DNA from: a virus
Virus record (IMG/VR): IMGVR_UViG_3300024353_000100
Location: 1 to 31,579 of that record
DNA: 31,579 bases
Direction: 5' to 3' (one strand)
Position numbers and translations under genes: made by a program. Positions 490 through 23,638 of this stretch are shown here, piece by piece. The notes under the pieces are model-generated. The model ran no database searches and had not been told where the DNA came from. It was given only the letters and a program-made list of their open reading frames with translations. Numbering within the stretch: the stretch's first letter is position 1; each line of letters begins with the position of its first letter.

Positions 490-531
490 AAAAAGGCCTC
501 CCCGGGCCTGGCGCCGGAAGGAGGCCTTTTT
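490..531. terminator. Strong bidirectional hairpin terminator
   Basis: A perfect 12-bp stem: AAAAAGGCCTCC (490-501) pairs with GGAGGCCTTTTT (520-531). The 18-base loop can form a further CCGG/CCGG stem. The A-run before and T-run after the GC core give a U-tract on either strand. It lies downstream of the giant gene and the 46-codon ORF, and ends the ejection-protein transcription unit. Confidence 0.85.
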
Positions 532-863: not shown

Positions 864-3800
864 CTAAGCAGTAGGTTCTCCTCTAATCAATTGTCTTCTA
901 CGTGCTCGCAACATCATCTTCTTGATCCTGCTTCGCACCTTTTTCCTCGCATTCTTGATGATTGCTGTCAGTAAACGGAGCCTGCGGGACTCGGGCAATT
1001 TAGCCCATCGGCCTGAAATAACGGTGGCGGAAAGCTTCCTGCGCACCATGGCAGACGAATCATCCAGATATTTCTCATATTGCTCCCTGGTCATCTCATA
1101 ACTGATGCCACTGATCATCAAATGCCTGCTTGGCGGAGCCATATGCAATACATCTCTTTTTACCATATCCTCGATTGCCTCAAAAACCACATCCTTCTCA
1201 GGGCCTTTCGCCCGCACAATAGGAGTTTCGATACGTGGCCTCCATGCCTTGTGGACCGCAGCACCCATTGAGTGCATCATGGCAGTGAGACCATCTTCCT
1301 CGCCCTGGAGATATCTGATAAGATGGCCAAGTTGAATGGGCTGCATATTGACCACCTGGTTGACAGTAATGGAGGGCAGGGCAACAAAGAATCCCTCTTT
1401 TTGCTCGTAGGCGGATTTCTTTATCGTCTTCCCGGTCTTGAATAATTCACCCACAGCGGTAAAGGGCCGCTCTGCCCAATCCGATCTGGAGCCCAGGGCA
1501 CCGATGATCCTCATCATAGGGGAGCCTTTATGCTTGATCAGGCGGGGGGGATTAATAAGCTTGAGCGGATCAAAGAAATGTCCACCCAGGCTGAATGTCA
1601 TACGCTGTCCTTCGGTATCGATTCCGAGCATTCTGTAGAGCTTGCTCACCTCCAGCTCTGTCCATCTAAACTTGTTCCACCTGTTTGAGAACATCTGCTC
1701 TTCAAGGAATTCATCGGTCTCATCCTTGCCATTGAGGAACATCTGGGCGAGAATAGTGATCGCTGCAATCCGGAATATCACCCTGCCCCAGAATTTCCGG
1801 TAGATCTTATCCAGGCCGGCGGGCGGGGCAACATCGCCCATGAATTTGCCAATAGTCTTATTTAGCCCCGGGATCATGCCGGAGACGGTCCTGAAATTGG
1901 ATTCCGTCCAGTCAGGGGCCAGCAAGAGAAGCCGAAACATATTCTGAAGCGTAGGATTTCTTCCCATGCGCGGGAGATGGAGACCACCGAAGTCGGCATT
2001 GATCAAGCGGGCCACGTTTTCTGCGATCTTATCAGGACTGGGGGGCATGGGCGATACACCCTGCGTATATCTTTCCTGCTCTTTCTGGAGCTCGTGGGCA
2101 TATTCAATGACAAAAGCCTCTGCCTTCAGCCCTGCAAAGAATTTCTTGAAAAGGCTATCCGTGAATTTCTGCCGTTTGAATTTCCCGTATTGAATGGCCT
2201 TATCGAGGGGCTCTATGCCCAGATATTGCACCAGGGACTCGGTGAGCCCTTTCTGTTGCCTCAACTCATTTTCTGCCCAATCCTGGAGCTCGCCCAGGGT
2301 GAGCCCATTTTTTATGCCCAGTTCTATATGGGGATGGTTATCCTGGATCTTTGCCAGGCCATCCTTGTAGGCTTTCACGGGGTTTGCCTTTCTCCATCCA
2401 TGATGGACCCCGAAGATCCAGGACCGGGTCCCTGCCATATGGTGGAAGAAACTGGAAAGCAGGATCCATGATTTCAATCCGCTATTGAGACGCAATAGAT
2501 GTCTGACAACCGGTATCTTAAATACCCAGGTATCCGTGGCAGTCATCTTGTTTATCATCTCTGCCAGGGGACCAGGGGCAAACAGGGCCTGCTTCTGAAA
2601 TATCTCGGAGATATCCTTCGGTATGTTTCGCTCGATGCGTTTATAGCCCTTATCCCGGGCAAAGGTATTGGCCTCCACAATGCTGTCAAACGTCTTGACC
2701 GGCTTTTTTGCCTTATCATCTTTGAATACCGACCAGGCTCCCGGGATCCGCTCCGGAGGTGTGGCAAAAAACTTCCGGCCATAGGTATCCACGATCAGGG
2801 CCTCATCATCCCCGAATTCTGCCTCGATCTCTGCCTTTCCTGCCCATCGCCATACGGAAAATCCCGTAGCCTTCAGGGCCTGGTATCCCGGCATCTTTGT
2901 GGTGGAAAACAGCGAATTGCCATTGCTGTCCTTGGTATCGATACCCTTCTGGATAAAAGCCTTGTTTGCAATGATGGTGACCAGATCTGCCATATAACTA
3001 TCATAGCTGCTTGTCAGGCCCTGAACCTTAAGATCATAGCCGTTCATCCATCCATCCAGGATAGTTTCAAAGGTTCGCGGCATGGCAGCCGTGGTAAATG
3101 TCTTGAATCCATAGCCAGTGCCCAGACCCTGAACCTGGTCCTGCTTCTCCTTCGGTAGATTCCAGAGCCTGCGTACGTAATGGTCCCGGTGACTCTGTAC
3201 TACCTTGTGTGTTTTGGCCTTCTTATATGCATCCTCAAAGAGCTCGCCCATATAAGAAGTAAACTCTTTTTGCTGATCGGTGAGATTTAAGGCCCCCTCC
3301 AGCGTCTTGATCTGTTTTTTTATAATCAATTTCTGGCTGGCAGGCGTTTTGGGATCCTTCAGGCGTTCATCTGCCCATTTCCTGAATTTATCTCCCTTAT
3401 CCGGATTGTTTTGAAGATCCCGGTGGACCATCATGGCCCGGTCCAGATTATCGGATGCAATGGAGCGCTTGAGTTTTGGCTGGTATCCGATTCCAAGATG
3501 GATTCGCTTTCTGCTCGGCTTACCTGCAAGTTCCTGAACCTTGAGTTGAAGTTTCCCTACCTCGTTGGTGATCCGGTGCCTGGCCAAATCACCCATCTCG
3601 AAGAGCTTGTTGACAAAAGAGCGATTCTCATGCATGGCCTGTGCTGTATCCTGGCCGGTCTCCTCTTTGACTACGGCATAGAAAGGTTGATCGGCTACTT
3701 TGGTGTCAGCTGGTATCTCTATACTTACCGGTGATTCAAATATTCGGCCCGTTTCGATCCTTTGTACTATTGCCTCGGCCGTGCGAACCCCGAAAGCCTC

Positions 3801-6800
3801 AAGAAGCCGATCGATAAAGTTCCGGATCTTGAGCAGGATCTTGCCTGTAGTGCTTTTGACATCAAAGATTGTGCCTAATTGGGATTCTATCCACAAGGCC
3901 CGGTCCTCTCCGGAGCCGATATGTGCAGGATCAGTAGGAGTAAACTTACCCTGTTTTGTAAGGGCACGGATCTTGTTCTGCAGGATCCGGATGTCCGCCT
4001 TGCTGATAATGCCGGCATCCTCCATGAAGTGGTAGGATTCATGGCTCAATATCCATCGATCGGCCAGATCCCGCCTGAGCTCAATGCGGCCGTCCTCATA
4101 TTTGCCCGCAATCGCCTCACCCGGCTTTCTGGGCCTGCCATAGCCGAGATTAAAGGCCATGGTGTTCTCATCGATTCGGTCAACCGTGCGGATCTCCACA
4201 CTGCCATGATGTTGTGTGGTTACTGTGAAATTGCCTTCAGGAGTCCGGGTAACTTCCTGGCCTCTGAAGATGCGCTGGATATCCTCCAGGGTGGGTAGGG
4301 CTGTGGGGACTTTCTCCATGGCCAGCTTTATTTCCGGCATCAATCCTTTTGCGGCCAGTGCTCTTGCTTCCGATTCATTAACTGCCTTAATTGCTTCAGA
4401 CCTAGTATAGAATTGCCCTTTTTGGTTTATGAAGCCCATGTCGTCATGCATAAGGTGTTGGTGCATTCGCCCTAACTTTACGGTAGGTATTTGATCTATT
4501 ACATCAAGATGAATTTCCCCGGGTCTCCCTTTATAGACCGTTCCGTCTTTCAATCTAACGGCTACTGCCTGGAAGATTCCTTTTTCCATGGCCAATTTAA
4601 GCTCAGGGGTCAGCTCAAAAGCGATTCCTGCGGCTGCCCTACCTTTCTTTCTTGGTACACCAGCCCCTGCCCTCATTTTGCCCCAGATGTCTTCAGGACG
4701 ATAGAATCCTCGTGCGTTGAGGCCATTCCTGATGATAGTGAGCAATCGTTTTAGCTTGAGGAAGATTCTCTTGATGAAATTGGGAGCATCCTTGATTGAC
4801 TTAGTATTTACCATATATTCTGCGAAGGCATCGGCCTCAGATTCAATTGTCTTGAAATATGGGTCTTTGTCCAGGCGTGTCCGATCTTTAGCAGAGATCA
4901 TCTCATTTCTGAATCTCTCATAAAGTTCATGCAAGGTAGTATGTTCTAGCTGCTTCAGGTTGCGTCCGGGCAGGGCGAGGACAATTGACGTTTCCATGCC
5001 TTCGACCCTATGCGTCCCCAGAATCTTACCGGCAGTAACTCCTTCTTTTTCCCATCGTGTAAGGGCGCCTTCTACCTGCTTGGGATCAAATTCTGCTAGA
5101 CTTATATATGGCTTGACTTTTAGCCTGAGTTCACTGGCAAGATCCTTAAAGGTGGATTTTTCCAACCATCGAGGGAAGTAAACCATCTCAATAAGATTGA
5201 CATCTCTCTGCTGCTGCTTCGTGAATTTATAACCTTCTGGCCGGGCGGCGAGGCTGGGCTCCACTGAAAAGCTTGTGCCTGTGCCTTCCCTAATGATCCA
5301 CTCTTCCCGGGGAATAGCTTCGCCATAATAAGGCGGCAGTATTTCACGCAACTCAGGCGTAAGATCTTTACGCATAGCAACTTCACGAGCTTCGATTTCA
5401 CCCGCAAGGCGTTTATATTTCTGTACTGCCTCAAGCGGCCCGATTTCCTCTAACTCTTGATATTCCTTGACCACCGCAAGTTTTTTGTCCATCAACCTAT
5501 TGTAAACTGCTGGATTATCAATATTTTCTTTCAAGGCCATATTGTATTGATTAACGGTGTCCATTAAGTCCCACATACGTTGTCTATACTTTGAGACAAA
5601 TTGCCCAGGCATCCCCCCTCTCGCAAATCCTTCAATTACCTGGATGGCATGTTGGATTTCGTGGATGACCTGATCTTTTGCTTGATTAAGATTCTTTGCT
5701 CTAATCTCAATCGTCCCTTTTTCGGGTGAGTAAGATGCTCCTGGTTTTAACCCTTTTGTCAGGAGATTGAGTTCACCCAATTCCATTTTAATGGGTATTT
5801 TTTTGAGCTGCGGATATGCTTTAAACAGTGCAGGATGAACTAAAAAGTCAATTAATTTTATTCCCTCCTCAAAATCGAAAGAGTCAATGGATAACTCCTT
5901 TATTTCAGCCGTAATCTTCGCCCTACTATCATCAATCTCAAACCGCCATTTCCCCTCAGCCCCTTTCATCCATCCTGTTTCTTGCCAAACGGCCTCCTCA
6001 TCTTTACCCTTGGCAAGCATCTCCCGGGCTTTAGCGAGGGCACCTGTGGGGGCTCCTATGGCTTTTTCTCCCGCCATGGCAAGCTTGATTTCATCCTCTG
6101 GCACCCAAGGAGAAGGGCCATGCTTTTTTATATTTTCTTCGATAAGAGTTTTGACTTTTTCTTGGCCTTGTCTGTTCAAAATATCCCATGCGGAATCCTT
6201 AGCCTTTTCCTGCGTAGGATGATGGCCCGTAATCTGTAGTCCCGTTGTCGCCTCACTGATAGCCCACGTCTCATCGTCTAATTTGTGTATGAAAGTATCC
6301 AGCCACGGGGCTACTTCTATCTTTTTGCCCTTAACTGGTACATAACCTTCTTCATCAGGCATTTTCTTATAATACTGCCCCGGTATTGCTTCCAGCTCCG
6401 GCACTTCCTCAACGGCTTTGTTTGTTTCCCTCAGCTGGTCGTCGATCTCGTCCGCCCTCTTGCGCAGTTCTTTGAGTTTGCCCATGTGTTCAAACTCGGG
6501 ATTATCTTTAAGCCATTTCGTGAGATCAGCTCTTTTTTTTGTTTGCTTTTCAAGCTTATATTGCCTCTGTGTTAAGTCTTGGTCTAGCTGGTCGATTACA
6601 TTGTTTATCTTTGTCATGTATGCTGAGACAGCACTTTCCTCGCTTGTATATGCAGTAGGATTTTTAGCCCAAAATCGCATTAAGCTTTTGCCACCTTCAA
6701 CTGCTGCTTCTACTTCGCCATCAAAGTCCTTGCTTTGCCTGATGTTGAATTTAAGACCTCGATATGAAAATAAAGGCATAGGCCCTATTGTTCCTTTTAT

Positions 6801-9800
6801 TTGCGCTTCAAACTCAGTCCCGAATGCCTTTACAAGCTCTTTGCCGGCCTCTTTTTTATCGGTGAAAATACCGTCTTTAATACCCAAATCTGGAATTGCA
6901 TGGAATTTGATTGAAAAGTCTTTATCCTCCGGTTTAGATTCTCTTACTTTAAGGTCAACTTCTAGGGCATCAAGCTGTTTCTGGTACATCGCTCGATAAT
7001 TTTCCGCCTGGTCTATCTCTTTCTGGGTCCGATACCTCTGATCTCTCCATCCCTGGTGCATGACATGATACTTTGTCAAATCAGATTCGACCTTGACTTT
7101 CTCCATGACAATAGGGTTATCGGCTGCAATGGCTTTGGCCGTAGCATAATCAATTACGGTTTTGCCGATATCCTCAATGGTATCCAAGCCCCCCTTCATG
7201 GCCTGGCCGATAAATCTCGCCTTATTCTCTAAGAGCTGCCACCTGTAAGCATCAAAGGTACTCTGAGTGACATAACGATACACCCCCACTTCCTCATTGT
7301 CATTGCCAGGTCTTAAGGCCCTTCCGTCTCTTTGCTCCACACTTGCCGGGGTCCAGGGAGCATCAAGATGATGAACGGCTACTACCTTGTTTTGAACATT
7401 CATGCCTTCGCCCATTTTCTTACTGCTTCCCATGAGGACGCGAACTTCACCCTCCCGTACCTTTTGAAATAAGGTCATTTTTTGATCATCCTTGGGATAG
7501 TCATGGATAAAGGCTATTTCTTCCTTTGGTACACCTAGCTCAAGAAGCTTATCTCTTACATCATAATAGACATTGAATACCCCTTTCCTGGGAGTGGAGA
7601 AATCACAGAATAAAAGCTGCGTAGACTTTGCATCTGTAGTAGACCTGTAGATATTAAATACCTTATTGACCATGAGATTAGCTTTGCTTTCAGGATTGTC
7701 GGGCAGGGTAGGGTCAATCAACCTCATATCGAGAGCCGCTTTCGTGCCATCCAACGTAACTACCAATGCATTGTCGTCTCTCGGGTCAACCCCTCCGGAT
7801 CTGATTTCTTTCATGCGAGCTTCAAGACCGTTGACATATTCTTTTTGTTCCGGAGAAATATCAGCCTTTATAATTTTGGGTTTTCCGTCCTCAAGTTTTG
7901 GCACTGGTAAATGAGGCAAGTCTTCGGAATGCAAAACATCAGCAAAATCGCGGAAAAGTGTGGAGAGTTGATCCATATTGACAAAATTCCTGAATCGGGT
8001 ATGTACTCTGAAACCAGCTCCGGTAGGGGTTACTTCCAACTCTGCTGCAATCTCTCCAAACGTGCCTGCCCATGCATCGAAATTGTGGATGTTAAGCTCT
8101 TTCAACGCATCCATATCGAGATATCTTTGTATTGTATACATCTCTGCCATGGAATTAGAGATAGGTGTGCCGGTTGCGAACACCACTCCACGGCCATTAT
8201 TGAGACTGGTAAGGTAACGACTTTTTAAAAACAAATCAGTCGTTTTCGCCACATCGGAAGACTGGACACCTGCAACCCTGGTCATTCTCGTGGCAAACCA
8301 GAGATTTTTGAAGTTATGGGATTCGTCAATAAACATATAGTCCACGCCCAGCTCTTCAAAGGTGACGCCCGTATCTTTCTCTCCGCCTGCAAGAAGCACT
8401 TGCAATTTTTCGTCAAGCCGCTTCTTGGCTTTCTCAAGCTCTTTGACTGTCCGGCTTTTTTTCGGCCGTCCGTATCCTACTTCTTCAGACTCTTCAGCGT
8501 GGATTGCGTCCTCAAGTTCTGCCAGCTGGGATCTGATAAAATCATTCTGCACCTTTTTACTGATCGGCAATTTCATCATGTTCGGATGGCTGATAACGAT
8601 CGCATCCCAATCGCCGGTAGTAATCCGGGCCATAAATTCTTGTCGTCTCTCCGGGGTAAGGCTTTTCTCTTCTGGTACGAGAATCTTGGCAGCAGGATAG
8701 AATTTCAGAAATTCAGCCTCCCAGGACTTGAGTAAATGCTTGGGAACGACAAACAGAGGTTTCTTTGCAAGACCCAGACGCCTTAATTCCATGGCCGCCG
8801 CCGTCATTGAAAGCGTTTTGCCGGAACCCACGACTTGAGCAAGCAGCGTGTTTTTGCCCTGGACAATGCGCCAGGTATTATCTTTTTGATGAGCCCTGAG
8901 TGAAACGCCCATGGCCATGCCGGGCAAACGATCAGGTAGATGGTCCCCAGCATATTTCCTTAACCTGATGTTATTGAACTTTTCATTATATATCTTGGCA
9001 AGATTATCCCTGCGCTCTGTATCTTCCCAGATCCAGCGCTCAAATTCTTCCTTGATTTCTTGCTGTTTTGCCTGGGCAAGCAGGGTCTTCGACCTATCGA
9101 TAACCCTTCTCTCCTGGCCCTCGACTTTGACCGTAACATATACGGTGGGTATTTTGAGGTTTAAAGCATCACTTACAAGGCTTATGGCATCTACGTCGGG
9201 GATGCCCCATTTCTGTTCGTTCAATACATCATTGATTCCGACTCGCCCCTCTTCTTTCTCCAAAACCCATTGCGACGTGGCAGATATGTACCGGGGTTTA
9301 TAACCTCTTGCTTCAAGGAGATGGAATAGAAAACCTTCGATATCTTTTTCAGGGATCCAGTTGGCACCTAATCGGGCAGTAATTTGAGACGGCATTTTGT
9401 CTTCAGGTTGTACTTTTTTGAGGGCTGCTACATTTTCTTTATACTTGGGGTCTATCTCTGCCGCTGCCTCAGCCGCCTCCAGTTTTGTGCGAACATTGCC
9501 CGAGAGATATTCTTCAGCCGTCTGCCACCCGTTTTTCTCAGGATCCAGAAAGATAAGGCCCTTTAGCTCTTCCTTTAGTGTTCCCTCTGACTTCCCGGAG
9601 ATCTTGCTCATGTGCGCAAAATCGATCCGTCCCCTGTCAAAAACCGTTGCAATTAAAGCATCCTCAGCAGTTTCAACCTTCTCGACAGGGATATACTTAG
9701 CCATGGTACGCTGACGAAAGATGTCCGCCTTGGTTGCGGTCTTCTTATCGGCATCCCAATGCTCGAGAGAAAGAAGAAGGGGCCTATCCGGATCCCCCTT

Positions 9801-12800
9801 AAAAAGTCTAACATTTGTATTTTCATGGATAGGCCCATATTTCTTAACAAAACTATCATAGAGCTTGTTGAGTTCCTTCAAATCGGATTCAAGTAGCTCT
9901 TCTTTGTTCTCCAGTTGGTTGTGTAACGTCCCGCGGGTTTTATCTCTAAGGTTAATGAGGGTCTTCATCCTGATCATATCAGTCTTGCTTAACTTGACGA
10001 CCAGCGTTTGCGCCACTCCCTCTATCACCTGTTTCTGATAAATGCTATCGCCCTTAGCAAAATAAGCAAAATTCTTGATGTGCTCAGGAGCCGGCACCAT
10101 ATCGGCGATTTTAGGTCCCTCTGTGGTCGCCTTGTGCCTTATCTTCTCATAAAAACCTTGCTGCATGGTTTCTATGGCCCCTTTCAGGGCTTCACCAAGA
10201 TCACGGCCGTCGGACTCTAAACCGGCCCTCTGGTAATGCAGCTTGTCCCGTACGATCTTGCCGAGCTGCATATTAGGGTTATTATGGAAATATTCATTGA
10301 TTGGAAAGCTGTCGCCTTCTTTAGTCTCCCAGGCCAGCGCATCTTGCCAGACAACTCCTTTCGGTTTTTCTCCTTCTTTGAGCTTTCTCAGGAAGATAAT
10401 GTCGGTTGTAACCTCGGTATTGGCAATCTTCTTAAAGGCATTGCTGGGCAGACGGATAGCGCCGATGAGTTCAGCACGTTCGGCAATGTATCTCCGGATC
10501 CTCTTGTCCTTCTTATTCATCATTCCAGCCGATGTGATAAAGGCAATCAGACCATTGGGACGCACCTTATCGAGGGATTTGGCAAAGAAGTAATCATGGA
10601 TGAAAAACTTTAGCTTGGCATAATCAGGATCAAATACCTTGTAATCCCCAAAAGGTACATTAGAAATGGCGAGATCAAAGAAGTTGTTAGGCAGTTTAGT
10701 TTCTTCATATCCCTGAATCCGGACATCTGCATCGGGATAAAGAAGTTTCGCTATCCTGCCCGAAATTGAATCAAGCTCGATTCCAACCAGCTTGGTTCTC
10801 CAATCGCCAGGCATACGGCCAAAAAAGTGACCTATCCCCATGGATGGTTCTATAATCCGACCACCATCGAAGCCCATCCAATTCAGGGCATCATATATGT
10901 GATTCATCACTAAGGGAGATGTAAAATGAGCATTAGGTGTGCTTTTACGTGCGGATTCGTATTCTTCCTCGGTAAGCAGAGCTTCCAGTTTTTTAGCTCG
11001 CTTATCCCAGGGTGTCTCCCTCCAGGCAGGAGATTTAAAGACTTCAGATAGACCACCCCACCCCACATACTTAACCAGCGTAACTTGCTCTTCGGGGGTT
11101 GCTGGACGGTTTTCGCCTTCGATTTTTTTCAGGAGATTGATCGCTGCGATATTGCGATCGTATTTGGCAACCGGGCCACCCTCTTCTAGGGCGTCGGCGT
11201 CGGTGATTCGGTAGTTTCTTCCAGAAGAGTGTTGACGGCCAAGCTCGGCTGGTCTTCCTCGCTCGGGAGAAGGACGTATCTTTCCTTCACCATCTCCCAG
11301 GCCTCGTGTTCCTTCAGGCCGTGATCTGATATCAGATTCACCATATCCTCCGAAGTCCTCTCCTCGACGTGCAGGAGGGCGTTCTCCAGGAGCCCTTTCT
11401 TCTCTAGCTCCCGGTACATGTTCGGGCGGTGCTCCTTCCAATGGCTCTTCGCCAGGTTCCCGTAATATCCGAGGTTTTTCTTCGGCACGTTCTTCTACCT
11501 CTTTTTCTTTAATTATAGGCTCTTTTGGGGGCTTTGTCAACTTAAAATTCATGGCCGAAAAATGCCGCCCTCCATCAATGCTTAAATCCTGATTTCCATG
11601 AGAATCTGTATTGATATGAGTGACCTTGCCTGTAAATTCAGCCGTAGTAGGGGCATCAAACCCGCCTCGCACTGTTACATAATCACCTATCTTAAAAACA
11701 GTAACTTCGGGTTCGGCTTCTTCTTTAATTTTTTCAATGGCTTTCGGCTTAGGCTCCTCTGCCTTCTTGCCTGTGATGGTGGTTACTGCTGGGCTGGGTT
11801 TTTTCTCAGCCGGGACCTCTTCTTTCACCTCTGCCACCTCAAGCGGCTTTGACTCAAAGAGTATCCACCGTCTCTTTTCTTTATTCCAGATCTTGGAAAT
11901 CTGATCCTCTCTGACATTTTCTTTACTGACAAAGACATCTTTTGACTTTGTAACCTCTATCAAAAACCTGCTTCCTTTCTGCATTTCCGATTGATCGCTG
12001 GTTAACATTCTTACATTTTTTACAATACCGGTTCCACCGGTCTTTACCTTAATCTTGACGCCTTCTTTGGGGATCTCGGATACAGGTTCGATCTCTTCCT
12101 CTGCCTTTTTCCCGGTGATCGTGGTTACGGCTTTGGCTGGTTTTTTCTTGGCGGGTTTTTCTTCCTCAAGCTTTCCCAATTCAGGATAATCGGGATGGGA
12201 AGTGATTTTGCCTTCTCTTATTGCTTTATCTACCTCTTGCCAATGATATTTAACTGCATTTCTTGTACGGTCTCCCTCAAGTCCAGTTAAACGTCCATAT
12301 TCAACTTTTTCACCAGTATCTAATCTGGTCTTAACATTTTCCCAGTCTGCTCCATAATCTTCAACATATTCCTTTAATGTTTTTTTGTAAGGCTCTTTAG
12401 CTTTTGCCTCTGGGATAGGCTTGGGCTCTTCAACTTTTTCTTTGACTGGGACCACCTTTGGGGGCTTCTCCGGCGTCTCCGGTATCTCAATGCCTTCTCT
12501 TTTAAGTCCCTCAGCCATTACTTGAGTGCCTTCTTTGGGACCACTTTCGATATTATACATGGCAACATGGTCGCCTTCAGGGGTTTCCTGCCACGCCAAG
12601 AAAGATGCAGTGGGCTTTTCTTCAACCTCTTCAATCTCTTCTTCCACTGGCGGAGCGACTTCCAGAGGCTCTTCAAAGATCTCTTCAGGCTCTTCAACTC
12701 TCTCCGGAACTATCTCTCCGGTAATCTCTTCAGGTAGCACTTCCTCTTCCGTTTCCGGAACCTCTTCAGCCGTTGCCTCTTCCTCAATCATCACCTGGTC

Positions 12801-13832
12801 AAGCAGATCCGAGGCATTCTTTCTGATTTCCTCCTTTTCCGAGATTTCTTCCTGTTCAGCCGCCCTCTCTTTAAGGGCGGGCTCCTCTCCGATATCCTTG
12901 ATCAAGTCGGCATTGTCCGGTGAGCCTGATTCTCCGATAGCGATCTCTTCTTTCTTTTCCGGCTCAACGCCATATCTACCCACTGTGACCGCAACACCGC
13001 CGCCAAGGGTGGCACCAATAATACCGGCTTCGATCAAACGGCCGATATTTTCAGATAACGTTTGATCCGGCTTGTGGCCCAGTTTCTCCACATAGACATT
13101 CACGGCCTCCTGAGCTACTTCCGTAGTGCCTTCAACCCAAGCCCATCGGACTATTCTCCTTATGACCCGAGGACCACCCATCTTATCCAGAAACAATGCC
13201 TTGAATGGCAAGATCTCAAGGATGCCATTGACCACACCCACTGTGAGGCCTTCCATTGTAGCGATCTGCTCAATCTCCTGATCGCTGTATCCCTGGCCGG
13301 CCATCTCTTTTTTTGCCTGGTTATAGGTGTAACCGGCCTCCACGGTGAATGCACCACTCCAGCCCGCGGCCAACGCCACAGTTTTTATCGCCTTTGCACC
13401 CCAGCCAAAAAGTTTTGCAGCTTTCATGGCGCCAAGCCCGGGTAGCATCATGGCCGCCATGTTGGGAAGGTTTTCACCCACGCTTCTTGCCCACCATCTC
13501 CAGTCCGCCAGCCGTTCCGGATGCTCCCAGATAGTGCCCTCCTGGAGATATTCAGGCCTACCCAGGGATTCTCGCTGGCCTATCTCTTCCCAGTATTCCC
13601 GGGCGGTCTTGCCTCCGGGGATCCCCAGCATCTCCGCGGTCCCGCCGATAGCGCCCAATGTGCTTACAGCTCCGGCTCCTAATGCAGATACCGTTTCCTC
13701 CAGGAAGCCCCGCTCTCCTTCGGCAGGCTCAAGGCTTATATCTGCCTGGCCAAGGCTTAAAGTTCTCTTGCCTACTTCTTCTCCTTTTAGCCCTTGTAAC
13801 CAGGTATCGAATTCATTTAGTGATTTAAACAT
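864..13832 (-). CDS. Giant polyvalent protein: methylase-helicase (DarB-like) with zincin-like modules
   Basis: 4322 residues. Hydrophobic glycine/alanine-rich segments (about 45-72, 121-165, 194-215, 266-286) are followed by long Glu/Pro/Lys linkers and an SH3-like stretch (about 711-765). The N6-adenine methylase has motif I EPSMGIGHFFG at 995 and SNVPF at 1057, in place of the usual NPPF/Y. The SNF2-type helicase has VGSGKT at 1668-1673, DESH at 1836-1839, ATGTPISNS and QRDGR at 2167. After a coiled coil come HEIQH (2724), HELYE (2968) and HESYH (3264). The C-terminal module (about 3400-4150), with PRMGRNPTLQ and APDWTESN, resembles large polyvalent-protein-associated domains (LPD23 and LPD38 types from memory). 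The family includes DarB of phage P1, which is injected and protects DNA from restriction. Position after the nozzle and coiled-coil genes fits an ejected internal protein. The ribosome-binding site is poor. Residues about 782-883 are an Arg/Pro/Gly-rich stretch that overlaps another ORF in the +1 frame. Confidence 0.85.
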   Translation of the reverse strand: MFKSLNEFDTWLQGLKGEEVGKRTLSLGQADISLEPAEGERGFLEETVSALGAGAVSTLGAIGGTAEMLGIPGGKTAREYWEEIGQRESLGRPEYLQEGTIWEHPERLADWRWWARSVGENLPNMAAMMLPGLGAMKAAKLFGWGAKAIKTVALAAGWSGAFTVEAGYTYNQAKKEMAGQGYSDQEIEQIATMEGLTVGVVNGILEILPFKALFLDKMGGPRVIRRIVRWAWVEGTTEVAQEAVNVYVEKLGHKPDQTLSENIGRLIEAGIIGATLGGGVAVTVGRYGVEPEKKEEIAIGESGSPDNADLIKDIGEEPALKERAAEQEEISEKEEIRKNASDLLDQVMIEEEATAEEVPETEEEVLPEEITGEIVPERVEEPEEIFEEPLEVAPPVEEEIEEVEEKPTASFLAWQETPEGDHVAMYNIESGPKEGTQVMAEGLKREGIEIPETPEKPPKVVPVKEKVEEPKPIPEAKAKEPYKKTLKEYVEDYGADWENVKTRLDTGEKVEYGRLTGLEGDRTRNAVKYHWQEVDKAIREGKITSHPDYPELGKLEEEKPAKKKPAKAVTTITGKKAEEEIEPVSEIPKEGVKIKVKTGGTGIVKNVRMLTSDQSEMQKGSRFLIEVTKSKDVFVSKENVREDQISKIWNKEKRRWILFESKPLEVAEVKEEVPAEKKPSPAVTTITGKKAEEPKPKAIEKIKEEAEPEVTVFKIGDYVTVRGGFDAPTTAEFTGKVTHINTDSHGNQDLSIDGGRHFSAMNFKLTKPPKEPIIKEKEVEERAEEKPRILREPGEEPLEGAPPEHVPGAREERAPGERPPARRGEDFGGYGESDIRSRPEGTRGLGDGEGKIRPSPERGRPAELGRQHSSGRNYRITDADALEEGGPVAKYDRNIAAINLLKKIEGENRPATPEEQVTLVKYVGWGGLSEVFKSPAWRETPWDKRAKKLEALLTEEEYESARKSTPNAHFTSPLVMNHIYDALNWMGFDGGRIIEPSMGIGHFFGRMPGDWRTKLVGIELDSISGRIAKLLYPDADVRIQGYEETKLPNNFFDLAISNVPFGDYKVFDPDYAKLKFFIHDYFFAKSLDKVRPNGLIAFITSAGMMNKKDKRIRRYIAERAELIGAIRLPSNAFKKIANTEVTTDIIFLRKLKEGEKPKGVVWQDALAWETKEGDSFPINEYFHNNPNMQLGKIVRDKLHYQRAGLESDGRDLGEALKGAIETMQQGFYEKIRHKATTEGPKIADMVPAPEHIKNFAYFAKGDSIYQKQVIEGVAQTLVVKLSKTDMIRMKTLINLRDKTRGTLHNQLENKEELLESDLKELNKLYDSFVKKYGPIHENTNVRLFKGDPDRPLLLSLEHWDADKKTATKADIFRQRTMAKYIPVEKVETAEDALIATVFDRGRIDFAHMSKISGKSEGTLKEELKGLIFLDPEKNGWQTAEEYLSGNVRTKLEAAEAAAEIDPKYKENVAALKKVQPEDKMPSQITARLGANWIPEKDIEGFLFHLLEARGYKPRYISATSQWVLEKEEGRVGINDVLNEQKWGIPDVDAISLVSDALNLKIPTVYVTVKVEGQERRVIDRSKTLLAQAKQQEIKEEFERWIWEDTERRDNLAKIYNEKFNNIRLRKYAGDHLPDRLPGMAMGVSLRAHQKDNTWRIVQGKNTLLAQVVGSGKTLSMTAAAMELRRLGLAKKPLFVVPKHLLKSWEAEFLKFYPAAKILVPEEKSLTPERRQEFMARITTGDWDAIVISHPNMMKLPISKKVQNDFIRSQLAELEDAIHAEESEEVGYGRPKKSRTVKELEKAKKRLDEKLQVLLAGGEKDTGVTFEELGVDYMFIDESHNFKNLWFATRMTRVAGVQSSDVAKTTDLFLKSRYLTSLNNGRGVVFATGTPISNSMAEMYTIQRYLDMDALKELNIHNFDAWAGTFGEIAAELEVTPTGAGFRVHTRFRNFVNMDQLSTLFRDFADVLHSEDLPHLPVPKLEDGKPKIIKADISPEQKEYVNGLEARMKEIRSGGVDPRDDNALVVTLDGTKAALDMRLIDPTLPDNPESKANLMVNKVFNIYRSTTDAKSTQLLFCDFSTPRKGVFNVYYDVRDKLLELGVPKEEIAFIHDYPKDDQKMTLFQKVREGEVRVLMGSSKKMGEGMNVQNKVVAVHHLDAPWTPASVEQRDGRALRPGNDNEEVGVYRYVTQSTFDAYRWQLLENKARFIGQAMKGGLDTIEDIGKTVIDYATAKAIAADNPIVMEKVKVESDLTKYHVMHQGWRDQRYRTQKEIDQAENYRAMYQKQLDALEVDLKVRESKPEDKDFSIKFHAIPDLGIKDGIFTDKKEAGKELVKAFGTEFEAQIKGTIGPMPLFSYRGLKFNIRQSKDFDGEVEAAVEGGKSLMRFWAKNPTAYTSEESAVSAYMTKINNVIDQLDQDLTQRQYKLEKQTKKRADLTKWLKDNPEFEHMGKLKELRKRADEIDDQLRETNKAVEEVPELEAIPGQYYKKMPDEEGYVPVKGKKIEVAPWLDTFIHKLDDETWAISEATTGLQITGHHPTQEKAKDSAWDILNRQGQEKVKTLIEENIKKHGPSPWVPEDEIKLAMAGEKAIGAPTGALAKAREMLAKGKDEEAVWQETGWMKGAEGKWRFEIDDSRAKITAEIKELSIDSFDFEEGIKLIDFLVHPALFKAYPQLKKIPIKMELGELNLLTKGLKPGASYSPEKGTIEIRAKNLNQAKDQVIHEIQHAIQVIEGFARGGMPGQFVSKYRQRMWDLMDTVNQYNMALKENIDNPAVYNRLMDKKLAVVKEYQELEEIGPLEAVQKYKRLAGEIEAREVAMRKDLTPELREILPPYYGEAIPREEWIIREGTGTSFSVEPSLAARPEGYKFTKQQQRDVNLIEMVYFPRWLEKSTFKDLASELRLKVKPYISLAEFDPKQVEGALTRWEKEGVTAGKILGTHRVEGMETSIVLALPGRNLKQLEHTTLHELYERFRNEMISAKDRTRLDKDPYFKTIESEADAFAEYMVNTKSIKDAPNFIKRIFLKLKRLLTIIRNGLNARGFYRPEDIWGKMRAGAGVPRKKGRAAAGIAFELTPELKLAMEKGIFQAVAVRLKDGTVYKGRPGEIHLDVIDQIPTVKLGRMHQHLMHDDMGFINQKGQFYTRSEAIKAVNESEARALAAKGLMPEIKLAMEKVPTALPTLEDIQRIFRGQEVTRTPEGNFTVTTQHHGSVEIRTVDRIDENTMAFNLGYGRPRKPGEAIAGKYEDGRIELRRDLADRWILSHESYHFMEDAGIISKADIRILQNKIRALTKQGKFTPTDPAHIGSGEDRALWIESQLGTIFDVKSTTGKILLKIRNFIDRLLEAFGVRTAEAIVQRIETGRIFESPVSIEIPADTKVADQPFYAVVKEETGQDTAQAMHENRSFVNKLFEMGDLARHRITNEVGKLQLKVQELAGKPSRKRIHLGIGYQPKLKRSIASDNLDRAMMVHRDLQNNPDKGDKFRKWADERLKDPKTPASQKLIIKKQIKTLEGALNLTDQQKEFTSYMGELFEDAYKKAKTHKVVQSHRDHYVRRLWNLPKEKQDQVQGLGTGYGFKTFTTAAMPRTFETILDGWMNGYDLKVQGLTSSYDSYMADLVTIIANKAFIQKGIDTKDSNGNSLFSTTKMPGYQALKATGFSVWRWAGKAEIEAEFGDDEALIVDTYGRKFFATPPERIPGAWSVFKDDKAKKPVKTFDSIVEANTFARDKGYKRIERNIPKDISEIFQKQALFAPGPLAEMINKMTATDTWVFKIPVVRHLLRLNSGLKSWILLSSFFHHMAGTRSWIFGVHHGWRKANPVKAYKDGLAKIQDNHPHIELGIKNGLTLGELQDWAENELRQQKGLTESLVQYLGIEPLDKAIQYGKFKRQKFTDSLFKKFFAGLKAEAFVIEYAHELQKEQERYTQGVSPMPPSPDKIAENVARLINADFGGLHLPRMGRNPTLQNMFRLLLLAPDWTESNFRTVSGMIPGLNKTIGKFMGDVAPPAGLDKIYRKFWGRVIFRIAAITILAQMFLNGKDETDEFLEEQMFSNRWNKFRWTELEVSKLYRMLGIDTEGQRMTFSLGGHFFDPLKLINPPRLIKHKGSPMMRIIGALGSRSDWAERPFTAVGELFKTGKTIKKSAYEQKEGFFVALPSITVNQVVNMQPIQLGHLIRYLQGEEDGLTAMMHSMGAAVHKAWRPRIETPIVRAKGPEKDVVFEAIEDMVKRDVLHMAPPSRHLMISGISYEMTREQYEKYLDDSSAMVRRKLSATVISGRWAKLPESRRLRLLTAIIKNARKKVRSRIKKMMLRARRRQLIRGEPTA
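11186..11488 (-). CDS. Nested ORF in +1 frame of the giant gene, TnpV-like small protein
   Basis: A complete 100-codon frame with GTG start at 11488, preceded by GAGG nine bases upstream, and TAG at 11188-11186. It reads like a conserved globular protein: NLAKSHWKEHRPNMYREL, then KGLLENALLHVEERT, then HEAWEMVKERYVLLPSEED. The W-K-E-H-R-P-x-M-Y-x-E-L pattern resembles the TnpV-type small proteins of transposons and phages; this is recalled, not searched. By my count only 24 of 100 codons end in A or T, unlike the A/T-ending codons common nearby. The giant frame across the same bases is low-complexity Arg/Pro/Gly/Glu. Either this is an expressed overlapping gene, or a gene was inserted in the linker of the giant gene and is read through out of frame. 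Confidence 0.6.
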   Translation of the reverse strand: MPKKNLGYYGNLAKSHWKEHRPNMYRELEKKGLLENALLHVEERTSEDMVNLISDHGLKEHEAWEMVKERYVLLPSEEDQPSLAVNTLLEETTESPTPTP

Positions 13833-13855: not shown

Positions 13856-13887
13856 GCCACAAAGGCACCAAGACACGAAGGTTTATT
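13856..13887. repeat. Half copy of palindromic repeat family A
   Basis: Only the left arm is present (begins gccacaaaggcaccaagac), without the complementary right arm. It fills the gap between the coiled-coil gene ending at 13883 and the giant gene, and lies just upstream of the giant gene's weak ribosome-binding region. Confidence 0.75.
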
Positions 13888-15337
13888 TAAAGAGAGATCT
13901 CAGATTAATAATCCCTCGCTGTCCGCGACCTCTTCGTTTATGCTCGGCAATATCTTGCTCCAGCATTTTCTTCCGTCCAGCCTCGAACGCTGGAATTTTA
14001 ATTGAAATCACTTCCCGTTTTTTTATGAAATCGAGTTCCGCTTGTACTCTGGCCTGTTGCTCTGTTATATCGGGGTTCAGTTCCTTTATCTTCTTGGCCT
14101 CTTTTTTTATTTTTATCTTATCAGCCGGCGTGAGCATTTGCGTTTGCAGGCTTAATTTATCGAGTTCCTCCTTGGTTGCTGCAGGCCGTTCTCGCTCTTC
14201 CGGTTTAGGAGAAACTTTTTTCTCTTTCTTTTTGACTGGTTCTATAGCTTTCTGTTTCTTTTTCGCTGCTTTCTGAGCAATTTTCAGATGATGATCTATT
14301 AAACTGTTAGCACCTTTTATGTCTCCGGCATTTATCTTATTGCCCACCCGTTTTTTTACCATCTCAACATTAATGTTTCTGAGTTTCATCCCCTCCAATC
14401 GATTAAGCTTGTCCATGATATCACTATAATCTTCTTTTCCTGTTTCCTGTTTGCCGGCTTTTCTCTTTAATTCCTCAAGATTCAGGGATCCCCGGCTCAG
14501 CGTATCCAGATAGTCATCCACAAATCCCTTCTCAAATTTCCTGTAATCGTTTCCGTATCGCTTCTTCACATCATCGGTCAACCCCTCCCAGTTAAGCATT
14601 GCCTCCTCCTTGATCTCTGAGAGTTCCTTAGGTGTAAGTTTTTTCTTCCCTTTATCCATATAGTCAACCAACCGTTTCAGATTGTTGGTCCTGTTGTAAA
14701 GGGTGTCATACTGGCCTTCCAGGATCGTTTTTTGATTTGGAGTAAGGTCTGGATTCTTCAATTCTTCGTTTAGGGCCTGCAGCCGGTCGATATTGCCGAG
14801 GAGAGCGAATTTAAAGTTCATGACAGGGTTTTTTCTGAGATCCTGGATCTGCCCATGTAAGTCCCTGCGTCTCATGACGGTTCCGCCAGGATAAGAGCTC
14901 AGAAAGATTTCCTTCTGTGTGGGGCTCAATCCTGAAATCCCGGCCCAATCTTCCACGGTCTTCTCTTCATTGAGCCAGTTTTGTTCTCCCTCAAGGGCCT
15001 CCTGTTTCTTTCTCTCGGTCTCTGCCCTGAATCCGGTGAGTTCCTCGGTGGCTTTTCTGCCACGTGAAATCTCGGCAAGCCGCTGTTCCTCCAATCCTAG
15101 TCGCTTTCCTCGAAATCGCTCCTCGGATGCAAGCTTGGCAAGATCAAGGCCGGTAGTGAGCTTTTGTTTTTCTCCCTCAAGCTGTATGGCTTCTCTCTCG
15201 GCACTTATCTGGGCTAAAGTCAGCTTCATCTTAGATTCCTGGATCTTCTGGCCGACATAATCATTCATAATGTCCCGCAGGGTGAGTCGGGTCTTCTCCA
15301 GGGCCTGGGGTACCATTGTATAGGGATTTGCTACCAT
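13883..15337 (-). CDS. Coiled-coil internal virion (ejection) protein candidate, 484 residues
   Basis: Start ATG at 15337 with GGAG six bases upstream. Nearly all alpha-helical: charged heptad-like helices at about 10-130 and 200-330, a lysine-rich linker (about 350-385) and a basic tail ending RGQRGIINLRSLFK. Residues 59-69 (KLTTGLDLAKL) echo the TG-x-x-LA motif of the two upstream neighbours. There is no signal peptide, membrane helix or enzymatic motif. Its position directly before the giant polyvalent gene and after the nozzle matches the internal-virion-protein genes of podophages, so a structural role inside the capsid, with release during DNA ejection, is likely. No specific family is recognised. 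Confidence 0.75.
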   Translation of the reverse strand: MVANPYTMVPQALEKTRLTLRDIMNDYVGQKIQESKMKLTLAQISAEREAIQLEGEKQKLTTGLDLAKLASEERFRGKRLGLEEQRLAEISRGRKATEELTGFRAETERKKQEALEGEQNWLNEEKTVEDWAGISGLSPTQKEIFLSSYPGGTVMRRRDLHGQIQDLRKNPVMNFKFALLGNIDRLQALNEELKNPDLTPNQKTILEGQYDTLYNRTNNLKRLVDYMDKGKKKLTPKELSEIKEEAMLNWEGLTDDVKKRYGNDYRKFEKGFVDDYLDTLSRGSLNLEELKRKAGKQETGKEDYSDIMDKLNRLEGMKLRNINVEMVKKRVGNKINAGDIKGANSLIDHHLKIAQKAAKKKQKAIEPVKKKEKKVSPKPEERERPAATKEELDKLSLQTQMLTPADKIKIKKEAKKIKELNPDITEQQARVQAELDFIKKREVISIKIPAFEAGRKKMLEQDIAEHKRRGRGQRGIINLRSLFK

Positions 15338-15399: not shown

Positions 15400-16404
15400 T
15401 CAAACTATCTCAGTGTTAAACCTTATATATGATCTCCTCTTTGAGCCGATAACATCACATAGAAGAATAAAGACGCATGTGATACAGATGGCCGTATTTG
15501 AGGGCCTGGACTTTAGCTCATCGAAACCCCAAATACCCAATTGCCAGCGTGCGAATGTGATAAGGTTATCCACCAAATGTCGTTTGATTAATCTTTTGAT
15601 AGATCGATATCTTGTCATAAGGGGCACGATTTTCTCTGCTATGATATAGTATCCTCTCAATGTAGTTGGTGAGAGAAACAAATCGCGGTATTCCCGCGCA
15701 ACCTGTACTTCATAGGAATCCGGAGCCGTGGCTGCCGTAATGATAATACAACCTTCGCCCTCTGTAGCAAATGCCTCCACCAGGCCGACACCTGCGCCGA
15801 TAGCAGTACCCCAACCAGGGGCAATGATCGTGCCTTGACCGGCCCTGCGTGCAACCAATTCCGTACCCTTCCATGTGGCCTCATCACCACCATATTCCTC
15901 ATGCATTTTGCTTGCCAATGGCTGGCCATATTTCTGGCCGCCATACTCAAGTGCTAGTACGCCGGCACCTTTAAGATAAGGGCTAGTGCCTCCGGTCGTT
16001 GCTCCACCTTCAACCGCGGGAGCGGCCCCAGAAACTGGTACAGCACTGCCGCCTCCCTCCGCTGATACGGTTGCAAGTGAAGTTGTCGTGGCTGGAGCGG
16101 CCGGTCTCGACTTTTGGTATAGATAAGCCCCGCCCATTCCGAGTGTGGCCAGATTTATGCCGGTGGATACCTTGGCCTGTTTCTTGGACTCAGCCATCTG
16201 CTCTCTTGCAAGGCCCATCTCCTTTTCCGAAATCTCTTTTTCCATCGCGAGACTCTCCTTTTGAAGATCGATATCTTCTTTGCGCTCAACAGATGCCCTA
16301 TATGCCGGTGATTGGGCAAAGAGAACATCGGCCAGAGAGATCCGTGGCTTTTTGCCGGTGACGGCAGCGGTTTGCGGGGTGTATAGGGTGCTAAGGTTGA
16401 TCAT
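15400..16404 (-). CDS. Internal virion protein candidate with CFI-box-like C-terminal domain
   Basis: I chose ATG at 16404 because GGAGG lies five bases upstream; an in-frame TTG at 16416 would swallow that site. 334 residues. The N-terminal half is a charged coiled coil (about 38-80), ending in the motif STGINLATLG (80-89), which matches the 165-residue neighbour. An Ala/Gly/Thr/Val-rich linker (100-145) and a glycine-rich hydrophobic stretch (190-213) follow. The C-terminal part begins CIIITAATAPDS (219-230) and continues VAREYRDLFL (235-244), a C-[FI]-I-x-T-A pattern with a downstream R-x-[FY]-R-D, as in 'CFI-box-CTERM' domains. The biochemical role of that domain is unknown to me. Context suggests an internal or ejection protein. 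Confidence 0.75.
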   Translation of the reverse strand: MINLSTLYTPQTAAVTGKKPRISLADVLFAQSPAYRASVERKEDIDLQKESLAMEKEISEKEMGLAREQMAESKKQAKVSTGINLATLGMGGAYLYQKSRPAAPATTTSLATVSAEGGGSAVPVSGAAPAVEGGATTGGTSPYLKGAGVLALEYGGQKYGQPLASKMHEEYGGDEATWKGTELVARRAGQGTIIAPGWGTAIGAGVGLVEAFATEGEGCIIITAATAPDSYEVQVAREYRDLFLSPTTLRGYYIIAEKIVPLMTRYRSIKRLIKRHLVDNLITFARWQLGIWGFDELKSRPSNTAICITCVFILLCDVIGSKRRSYIRFNTEIV

Positions 16405-16421
16405 GGCTTCCTCCAATGCTT

Positions 16422-16499: not shown

Positions 16500-16997
16500 T
16501 TATGTCGCCTCAAATCCGTATGAGGACCGCAATCTCTGATGCCAGGAACGTTTGATATGAGGCACGAGGAGATCACTCAGATCCTTCTGATATTGTCGCT
16601 TTAATCCCATGAGTTCATCTATGGCCTGTATGCGTTTCTCGGTCAGTGCCTCTTGCTTCTTTGCTTCCTTGATCTTGATATGTCCACCCCAGCCTGTAAG
16701 GGCCAGATTTGCTAAAGAGATCCCGGTGGCCCATTTGCCTTGGCGGCGGGCCTCACGCAAACTCTCTTTTTTTAATCCAACCCTTTCGCCTGCCTGGCGG
16801 CCTCTCTCTTTAAGGCGTTCTCTACCCATCTCCCGGCTGGCTTCGGCGGATTTTGCCTGTTCCTCTTCGCCTGCCTTGGCAGATATATATTGTAGGGTTA
16901 TATCCTCGGTAGGGGCAATGGCCCGCACATCCTGCGGCGTGGCCATGACCCTGCGCAATGCCCGCCCATAATAATAATCCGTTGCACCGTTCATCAT
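16500..16997 (-). CDS. Short coiled-coil internal virion protein candidate, 165 residues
   Basis: Two consecutive ATG codons at 16997 and 16994 follow AAGGAG at 4 or 7 bases; the first is used here. The protein is rich in Glu, Arg, Lys and Ala (about 40-90, a likely coiled coil). A hydrophobic stretch follows, ATGISLANLALTGWGG (90-105), which aligns with STGINLATLGMGG in the next gene including the preceding GL-[KA]-[KR]-E helix. A further helix and a basic C terminus end GFEAT. The start overlaps the stop of the upstream 53-codon membrane gene by four bases (ATGA), indicating translational coupling. Size, helix content and position resemble small internal core proteins of podophages. No database family is recognised. 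Confidence 0.75.
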   Translation of the reverse strand: MMNGATDYYYGRALRRVMATPQDVRAIAPTEDITLQYISAKAGEEEQAKSAEASREMGRERLKERGRQAGERVGLKKESLREARRQGKWATGISLANLALTGWGGHIKIKEAKKQEALTEKRIQAIDELMGLKRQYQKDLSDLLVPHIKRSWHQRLRSSYGFEAT

Positions 16998-17351: not shown

Positions 17352-20300
17352 TCACGTATCCTCCCGTATGACCTTATATTGCATATTCCATCCCAACACT
17401 CGCACACCTTTACTCTCACTGGAGGTGCTCACGGAAAACTCGATCCTATGGGACCATCCCTGAAGATTCAGGTTCTGCGTTGCCCTGGTATGCCGGTTGC
17501 TTCCGTCTGCATCAAGGGCAGTCAATTTAGTGATGATGGCACTCGTATCATTTTCATCCTGAACCAATACATCCTCACCTAGTGTGGCTGTCAGGCCGTC
17601 TCCTGAGATGGAGACAATATCGTATGTACCATCATTAGCTGTGCCACCCGAAACTGTAATCTCATCGCCTGCGTTGAAACCCGCAGTGTTAAAGTTTCCT
17701 CCAACGGTGACAATGGTATCCGGGGATGCGGTCTTGGAGAACGTGATGTCAGAAACCCCGATAATCCTGGCGCCAAACAATGTAGTGGCAGATGCAGAGC
17801 CATCCTTGTAGTGCTTGATGGTCACGGCTACATCCTCGGTTGTGGAGATACATGCCAGCTTGACCCGCCTGATCTCCGTGTAATCGAACATATCCCCGGT
17901 GGGGATAAGATCCGCACCCGCAACCTTCTGGGCAATGGGATTGCCGTCCCAGTCTGTGCCATGCTCCAGTCGCATCATATGGCCGTTATCCCGGAGCCCA
18001 TATAAATATTCCGCCCCGTAATCATCCGCTACGCGAAATGCGGCCTGGGGATAGGCATCCGAGCCTGCCGGGACCTTGACAAACCATTTTTTTCTCACCA
18101 GATCCAGGCAAAGACAGACATTGCATGTGGTCTGCCCGGAGCCGGAAGGAATCCAGAGATTGTATTCCATGTTATCCGGATCCACCTTCCCGTGTGATTT
18201 ATCGATCGCGGCATAATTGATACACCGGGCATCGGTCTTGTCAAAATAACATCTGATCTTCTTTCCTATTGTAGGCACGAGCACCCCGGCATCAAAGATC
18301 ACCGGGCCTATGTAGGAGAGCCAGATGGCAATGTTTCGCACTGCTTCAGCGCCTATGTCATATCCAACCTCCGCAGTATCCATCGTCTCAGAGGCAGGAC
18401 ATCCTATGATGCTCGAGATCTGATGTATCTGCCAGTTAGTTACATCATAGCCGATTAAAACATAGGTCTCTGTGGACTTGGTAAAGATCCCCGTGGTATA
18501 GATAGATGATCCGAAACGGTTATAGATCTCGCAATATGCGCTGAGATCCTCACTCCCGCCGAAATATAGCGGCCCCCTGGAGCCAAAAGAACTATCCTCT
18601 CCGTTGAATACGGATGTGGTGTTGGCCATGCCGTAATCGACCCGGTTGCCTTCTTTGCCATCCACAAATCCGCACAACAAGGGCCGGTTTCTGTACTGGG
18701 CAGGAAATTTATAGCCCTTGATGGTTCTCTGTGCGGGGATTCCCATAACGGTATCAATGACTACTTCTGCGGGACCACCCTCTGTGCCTGTAAGCGTTCC
18801 ATCCACTGAAATTTCATAGTAATAAAGATTTTTCCCAAATAAGGTTTGTCTGAATTCATCTTTTTCATCTGGCGGCTTCCAGCTTAATATCCCGGTTCTA
18901 TTGAAAGACTTATTCACGCCTTCCGTACCGGGAAGCCCATACGTGCTATCGGATTGTCCTTCGCCAGTATTGTATTGTGCCCCATCCCACCATCCGATTC
19001 TCATTTTTACGCTATTCGTATTTATAAGATCGGCTATCATCTCAAAACGAATTGCCGACATGCGTTCCTCAAATCCAACTATTATCGGATTATTTACATC
19101 AAGTGCATCAATGACGGCACCAACAGGATAATCCGTATATGAAGGCAAAAGTACATCCATGGTGTAGTCTTTATAATCTCCGGTTCCAGCAGTATCCTCC
19201 GGCAATTTATAGGTAAAAGCATATCCGCTATCAGCGTTGTACCAATCAGCGGAGGCATTGGTGTCTACGTAATAATGGGGAACCCTGGTAAAGATGGCAC
19301 CTGCGGCATTCTCCGCCGTAAATGTCGCCCCTGCAAAATAGGCTGTCATACCACCGTTTAACAGGTAGGTTAAGGTATAGGTTCCATCATTATTCGTTGT
19401 TCCTGTGACTACAACGCTATCTCCTGGTCGAAAGCCGGCCCATTGGAAATTATCTCCTTCATTTACCAATTGAATTTTGGTTACATCTGCCCCATATGCG
19501 AAGCCAGCCCAAGAGGGATAGAAACCCACAGCGGGAATTGAGGTCTTCGCTGTAACTGTGCGGACCAGGGCATTTGCTGTTATTTCAGTGCCTATTTGCA
19601 GATTCCCATAATCTATCGCATTCACTTCGTGTATGTACGAATAACCATGGCCGTATGGTACTGAGCCGGATTGCACTGTTTTAATCACGCCATCGCTGTT
19701 TGTTGAACTCGCAGCCGCAGTGCGCCCTCTCGTTACTTGGAAGCTTATCGTTGGCCTATAAACCCCATCCCAGTTGTCCGGGATATTCTGAAATGGTGCA
19801 TCTACGGTAATATGATAGATTTCAGCACTTCCGGCTGATAGTTCAAAAACATAGGCGTAAAGATATAGCCCCTCAAAGTGAAGCGGCCTAGCCGATCCAT
19901 CGGTAGATGTAAATGAGAAAGTCCCGGTTTGTTTCATCGCTCCACTACCATTATCGGTTCCGTCCGAGGTACCGGCGGTAGATACAAGAGCCGTTCCATC
20001 CCAAAATTTGCAAGTGAGTGTGGCCGAGCCTGTAGCGTTTACAGATTTTAAGTAATATTTAAATGCCTGAGCAGGTCTTGTGGTGAGAATAATCCATTTA
20101 TTTCCTGGTGTATCTCCATCGATGGAAACTATCTGGTCTTCGGTCTGAAGAGCATTATTAACTTTTTCGGTATGGTCCTTGGCATCTATATGGTAAGGTT
20201 TGTCTGCGACAGTAATTTTTGCACTTGTATTGGCTTCAGCAGTAAGCACGCCTGTTTCGAGCGTAAGGGTTCCGGCGGCAACGCCTGTTAATACAAATTC

Positions 20301-22291: not shown

Positions 22292-22319
22292 TTCTATTAC
22301 TCCGCCTCCGGCGGATTCA

Positions 22320-22942: not shown

Positions 22943-22954
22943 TACGGTTTCAGA

Positions 22955-23581: not shown

Positions 23582-23595
23582 GGTTCTTCTCCGTC

Positions 23596-23638
23596 TTAGA
23601 TTTAGATTTTAGATTTTAGATTTCCTTGCCTTTGTGGC
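23596..23638. repeat. Family B repeat joined to a truncated family A arm
   Basis: ttagatttagattttagat (tandem GATTTTA units, 23596-23623) is followed by ccttgcctttgtggca, which equals the right end of the palindromic A repeat. It fills the gap between the two adaptor-type genes. Confidence 0.65.

Follow-up and report, generated by a model that had tools for sequence, protein, structure and literature searches.

Organization of the locus

We analysed a stretch of 31,579 bases (the window), which is a complete IMG/VR virus record and a piece of a larger phage. On its minus strand, we found genes for a portal, a scaffold-like protein, the major capsid protein, small structural proteins and SU10-type adaptors, followed by a 1,237-aa structural protein, three small proteins, a giant gene and a terminator-like hairpin (Table 1). 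The giant gene is the final gene of this co-oriented virion block. Its placement after the structural and small proteins and before a terminator-like stem agrees with the first-pass annotation, and its open frame is uninterrupted, as expected for a single 4322-residue chain.

The protein upstream of the small genes had been called a nozzle, but the 1,237-aa product matched only PHROG 1236 'head protein'. The three small proteins had been described as coiled coils. By eye, only the 484-aa and 165-aa proteins are charged and helix-like throughout; in the 338-aa protein, a stretch rich in Gly and a C-terminal part of another character interrupt the picture, and the description was not confirmed for all three. 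The segment GCIIITAATAP...EYRD of the 338-aa protein is unlike a coiled coil and may resemble a CFI-box-type C-terminal domain. No family match was found for the 484-aa protein in profile searches, including PHROG.

Between the giant gene and the terminator, at about 666-806 on the minus strand, there is a further open frame of 46 codons (MTPDEITRKLRKRIPPTRVRFSDKEV...). At 21080-24560, minus strand, matches to the SU10 adaptor family fall in two or three adjoining genes, suggestive of an adaptor duplication.

Table 1. Features of the window; residue numbers refer to the giant protein.
Feature	Position	Strand	Evidence or remark
Terminator-like hairpin with T run, 3' of the giant gene	494..519	-	stem 519-494
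Giant gene, DarB-like polyvalent protein, 4,322 aa	864..13832	-	open 4,322 codons, uninterrupted
C-terminal tail, residues 4199-4317; candidate loading tag	882..1238	-	
C-module, residues 3376-4198	1239..3707	-	
First codon (T3976) after the intein-like insertion point of G003 and G020, between LLAPDW and TESNFR	1907..1909	-	
Conserved zincin segment, residues 3163-3368, HESYH at 3264	3729..4346	-	
HEIQH zincin motif, residues 2724-2728	5649..5663	-	
LPD23, residues 2586-2640	5913..6077	-	Pfam E 3e-20
DarB-like methylase-helicase cargo, residues 784-2480	6393..11483	-	PHROG 10089 'DarB-like antirestriction', E=0
SNF2-type ATPase, residues 1644-2176	7305..8903	-	GSGKT, DESH, ATGTP, EQRDG intact
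Adenine N6-methylase core, residues 969-1162	10347..10928	-	motif IV NVPF
E/K/P-rich linker, residues 300-780	11493..12935	-	composition
N-module, residues 1-290: helical, Gly/Ala-rich, two moderately hydrophobic segments	12963..13832	-	
484-aa charged helix-rich protein, adjoins the giant upstream; candidate ejection partner	13883..15337	-	
338-aa protein; candidate ejection partner	15400..16416	-	
165-aa charged helix-rich protein; candidate ejection partner	16500..16997	-	
1,237-aa structural protein	17352..21065	-	PHROG 1236 'head protein'
Major capsid protein; defines the virus lineage	26766..27737	-	
Portal-like protein (PHROG connector); query for further lineage members	29720..31510	-	

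Domains and motifs of the giant protein

A domain search by segment, set beforehand, returned a methylase, SNF2 and an LPD domain as expected. The matches to N6_Mtase (residues 1079-1162), SNF2-rel_dom (1646-1843), ResIII, Helicase_C (2094-2176) and LPD23 were all above the Pfam cut-off, and the SNF2-type ATPase is fused C-terminal to the methylase. Methylase motif IV reads NVPF, of the NPP(Y/F) type expected for an EcoKI/TaqI-like N6-methylase, and is identical to that of P1 DarB. These domains, the PHROG 10089 match and the intact motifs bear out the proposed DarB-like N6-methylase and SNF2 helicase. In DarB-like dyads, an LPD36 domain with a GxG(G/A/S) motif precedes the methylase; the window giant has a GWGG directly before its methylase, and the Pfam search gave no LPD36 match.

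The zincin-like sites claimed earlier were recovered as two canonical HExxH motifs (residues 2724 and 3264), against 0.13 expected by shuffling. A third HE site, HELYE at 2968, is non-canonical. An HExxH occurs at the place matching residue 3264 in G001, G002, G014, G020 and G021. The HExxH sites are predicted zincin-like metallopeptidase motifs. C-terminal LPD38/LPD39 domains gave no Pfam match at E<=1 in the window giant; the E values for the giants of Burkholderia phage JC1 and Klebsiella phage LASTA were 2e-33 and 9e-65. With disparate domains in one chain beside virion genes, HExxH zincin motifs and LPD23, the protein has the features of a polyvalent protein.

A perfect sigma70 consensus (TTGACA-17-TATAAT, 11540-11512, minus strand) lies just before the methylase module. 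We consider this candidate internal promoter a probable chance occurrence, since 3/300 synonymous shuffles reached 12/12, no start codon downstream has a ribosome site, and the isolates do not carry the site.

The N- and C-modules

The N terminus had been described as membrane-like. We found two 19-mers above Kyte-Doolittle 1.4 in the N-module, at residues 190 and 266 (one more lies at 4014), and the structure prediction set beforehand for residues 1-290 gave helices only (AF2, mean pLDDT 63). The membrane-like character is moderate, and the hydrophobicity is modest. The N-module is common to seven of the nine relatives compared, with 48-77% conservation (alignment A4); it is absent from G001 and G010, and G005 and G009 hold fragments.

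No direct tblastn match to the N-module was found in GenBank phages. Its profile matched the N-terminal region of the Vibrio phage VvAW1 giant (hhalign E 1e-7), more weakly that of the JC1 giant (2e-4), and the lineage members G010 (3.6e-5) and G001 (4.4e-5), compared with 0.045 for the best of 59 control windows. The top structural matches in BFVD were first fragments of large polyvalent proteins. Similarity to coliphage N4 gp50 was marginal (E 0.0027), and none was detected to T7 gp16 or P22 gp16. The N-terminal domain of N4 gp50 goes into nanodiscs (PMC12633501). This precedent makes a membrane role of the N-module plausible, in line with the earlier proposal that it could help the protein to cross or line the inner membrane, but the similarity to gp50 is weak.

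Two other approaches to the N-module were set aside. Structure matches in the PDB (best Z 5.8) were unrelated helical bundles and uninformative. An E..TE..Q motif was seen in N-modules, but about 1.8 occurrences are expected by chance over the full set, and profile comparison was preferred. PDB sequences searched with the N-module and C-module profiles gave nothing relevant.

The C-module is 51-62% identical to its relatives (alignment A3, in which one row is a 570-aa MAG fragment), and we found no Pfam, PDB-sequence or GenBank-phage match. This module, described earlier as virion-type, is conserved in the virus lineage, but no named virion family was matched. The structure prediction set beforehand for this module yielded no confident fold (AF2 from seven sequences, pLDDT 50), and BFVD matches of the model, at TM about 0.2, were set aside. 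In hhalign, comparisons with the C-terminal ends of other giants did not rise above the controls, with the exception of VvAW1 (0.006) and the deeper relative G022 (5e-4).

The giants at L022 1086-4874 (G003) and L091 637-15111 (G020) contain an intein-like insertion that starts with C and ends in ITGN before T. Both insertions are at one point, between LLAPDW and TESNFR, in the block where conservation of the C-module is highest.

Exchange of parts among related giants

Relatives were found with the C-module, the N-module, the capsid protein and the portal as queries. The close relatives have capsid proteins 66-93% identical to that of the window. In these IMG/VR relatives the virion genes are retained and the slot is again occupied by a giant, but the parts of that giant are swapped.

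The methylase and helicase are missing from three of the eleven complete giants, where other domains replace them. In G010 (capsid protein 83% to the window), we found Zeta and RadC together with different N- and C-modules. The cargo of G003 (capsid protein 76%) comprises 2H, PRTase and ART domains, with the same N- and C-modules as the window at about 60%. In G017 (portal 65%), an N-module of the LASTA type (28% over 411 aa to that of LASTA) is combined with a SAM methyltransferase, RadC and the C-module of G010; the SAM methyltransferase is 71% identical to one in G001.

The N- and C-modules also vary. G001 has window-type cargo and C-module with another N-module that is common to G020 and G021, and G004 has a window-type N-module and another C-module. 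Since the G004 record contains no capsid or portal gene, it was placed by its N-module, its tail and its homologue of the 1,237-aa protein. In G015 (L041 598-5965), two genes with small genes inserted between them encode what is elsewhere a single giant: a 1,412-aa protein bears the N-module alone, and a 3,976-aa protein bears the cargo and C-module. On the tree, supported branches place the methylase-helicases of G000 and G001 with a human-gut phage contig and apart from the six other lineage members. This indicates at least two entries or exchanges of the module.

In G016 (MAG OS_PC_MetaG.mb.36, Proteobacteria), lineage portal, capsid and giant-tail genes were seen on several contigs (C131, C149, C150, C278 and C494). 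The bin is a weak hint to a proteobacterial host, or phage contigs were binned together.

A C-terminal tail retained by all complete giants

A tail of about 110 residues is the only segment found in all 11 complete giants of the lineage. The 11 are records of a single database and virus lineage, and they were counted once the pattern had been seen, with only three later records as a check. The tail profile was built from eight giants, and the remaining three (G017, G020, G021) were found afterwards. For two giants with foreign C-modules, the leave-one-out E value was below 1e-30. The MAG fragment L038 also ends in the tail. Tested record by record, the tail occurs once per record, at the C terminus of the giant and nowhere else in the records searched. 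As judged from the sequences, the new observation here is that the giants of this lineage swap nearly every part and retain one small C-terminal tail.

Outside the lineage, tblastn found no tail in 50,697 GenBank phage records, and the profile did not find it in the JC1, LASTA, 8P, VvAW1 and P1 DarB sequences. The window tail alone as query gave no match among viral contigs. More distant portal relatives (46-48%) have no detectable tail; one of the distant relatives, G022, carries a complete giant of 2,990 aa that lacks it. Among themselves, the tails are 32-47% identical and share invariant PI, PPS, G, M, Y, Y, S, AR and R. The invariant residues at this low identity indicate that the protein sequence of the tail is under selection. 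In ten-residue steps from residue 4200 to 4309, the AF2 pLDDT of the tail was about 62-88.

Proposed packaging, injection and anti-restriction

The window giant sits in the ejection slot after the structural genes, the same place as in VvAW1, JC1, LASTA and the phage 8P. CsCl-purified virions of JC1 yielded 51 unique peptides of the homologue gp69 (4,515 aa; PMC9144972), and DarB of P1 belongs to the phage head and bears its capsid signal at the N terminus (PMC9024508). Because of its homology to these two proteins, packaging and injection of the window giant are well supported, although for the window phage the case is one of homology. From the intact catalytic motifs and the homology to P1 DarB, we infer an anti-restriction role of the methylase-SNF2 unit, partly in line with the earlier idea of anti-restriction built into the virion. 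Taken together, the giant is very probably an ejection protein of the particle that is injected with the DNA and bears an anti-restriction methylase-SNF2 machine.

In this model, the giant would be the last and largest member of the internal (ejection) protein set of a phage of the short-tailed type, made late alongside the virion proteins and held in the capsid, most likely via its lineage-specific tail. On infection, it would exit through the phage tail as loosely linked domains, and its helical N-module may reach the cell envelope or anchor there, by analogy with the proposal for N4 gp50. The ATPase would then move along the entering DNA and the N6-methylase would mark adenines, shielding the DNA from type I-like restriction. 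Proteolysis by the HExxH sites may divide the chain into units.

Three other accounts of the giant were weighed. Its length could be an assembly artefact or a chimera, given that the window is one uncultured virus record, but uninterrupted homologous giants of 3,187-4,831 aa in independent records and proteins of 3,640-5,145 aa in isolates refute this, and we give it practically no weight. The giant could also be a late intracellular enzyme of DNA modification or replication that stays out of the virion and methylates progeny DNA ahead of packaging; replicating DNA is a conceivable substrate for a methylase-SNF2 pair, and packaging in the window phage is argued from homology. We regard this as improbable in view of the same-slot homologue in JC1 virions (PMC9144972) and of P1 DarB as a head protein. 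Moreover, the shared frame bears quite different enzymes in G003, G010 and G017, and its purpose is therefore not DNA modification as such. A more serious possibility, though short of an even chance, is that the methylase-helicase arrived recently as a moron in a structural, T7 gp16-like inner-membrane channel protein, with the channel essential and anti-restriction secondary. The three of eleven giants that lack the methylase-helicase show that the module is dispensable for the frame, and its presence in two separate clades on the tree points in the same direction. However, similarity of the N-module to T7 gp16 or P22 gp16 went undetected, which decides little, and the moron account is compatible with an injected anti-restriction giant.

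For the tail, its retention amid the exchange of all else is what a docking or loading signal might look like. We tentatively propose it as a virion-loading tag, at somewhat less than even probability. Such a C-terminal tag would differ from P1, since the capsid signal of DarB is N-terminal (PMC9024508). A bolder version, to which we assign a slightly lower probability, is that the tag is portable: any enzyme set between an exchangeable envelope-reaching N-module and the tail would be packaged and injected, and the slot would be a cargo-swappable delivery system. Alternatively, the tail may be conserved only as the neighbour of a lineage-shared recombination junction. It forms the extreme 3' end of the gene, and exchange upstream would spare it regardless of what it does. 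We find this unlikely, though close behind the portable tag, because the tails keep invariant residues at low identity, and the above-average AF2 confidence suggests a folded unit.

Loading and injection of phage proteins of 400 kDa and larger are poorly understood, and the loading signal is known for few giants. Giants of closely related virions that share one short tail separate what loads from what acts, and the tail is one named segment for testing loading. Anti-restriction appears as one of several interchangeable payloads in the same slot. If the portable tag is real, DarB-type anti-restriction would be one cargo, and Zeta, RadC, ART and SAM-methyltransferase domains would be others.

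Comparison with known systems

The window giant is a DarB-like polyvalent protein, a known kind, and the idea of a giant ejection protein is not new. Very large putative ejection proteins have been noted, for example Pavtok gp27 (PMC8402733). In Iyer et al. 2017 (PMC5512222), such giants are described as polyvalent proteins, with many unrelated enzymatic domains, zincin and LPD domains beside late genes, as in the window, and the methylase-helicase dyad is proposed to modify injected DNA; a lineage-wide C-terminal tail was not found in the parts of that paper covered here.

The methylase-helicase module is common to 116 GenBank phage records. In JC1, LASTA, VvAW1 and 8P, the giant follows virion and ejection-type genes. 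One of the closest known systems is gp69 of JC1, found in virions (Bcep22-like, PHROG 10089), whose methylase-SNF2 cargo is 34% identical to that of the window over 1,693 aa. Both giants have an HExxH after the helicase, weakly homologous N-modules and the last place in the virion block. In contrast, JC1 has an N-terminal SLT transglycosylase, LPD3 and LPD38, which the window giant lacks, and the latter has LPD23, an unnamed C-module and the tail. The giants of LASTA and VvAW1 carry a methylase-helicase 36% identical to that of the window in the same slot, with C-modules of no detectable homology to its own. VvAW1 shares a homologous N-module, whereas LASTA differs in having SLT and LPD39.

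P1 DarB shares the NVPF adenine methylase and the SNF2 ATPase (32% over 189 aa, E 7e-23) and, according to the literature, protects DNA in cis. It differs in its length of 2,255 aa and in having no such N- or C-module; its capsid signal lies in the first 30 residues, and it requires other Dar proteins. The virion RNA polymerase gp50 of coliphage N4 is likewise a giant ejection protein of the beads-on-a-string kind, in which a helical N domain that inserts into membranes is joined to an enzyme and a C domain (PMC12633501). We liken the layout of the window giant to this one, although the enzyme of gp50 is an RNA polymerase and the sequence similarity is only marginal.
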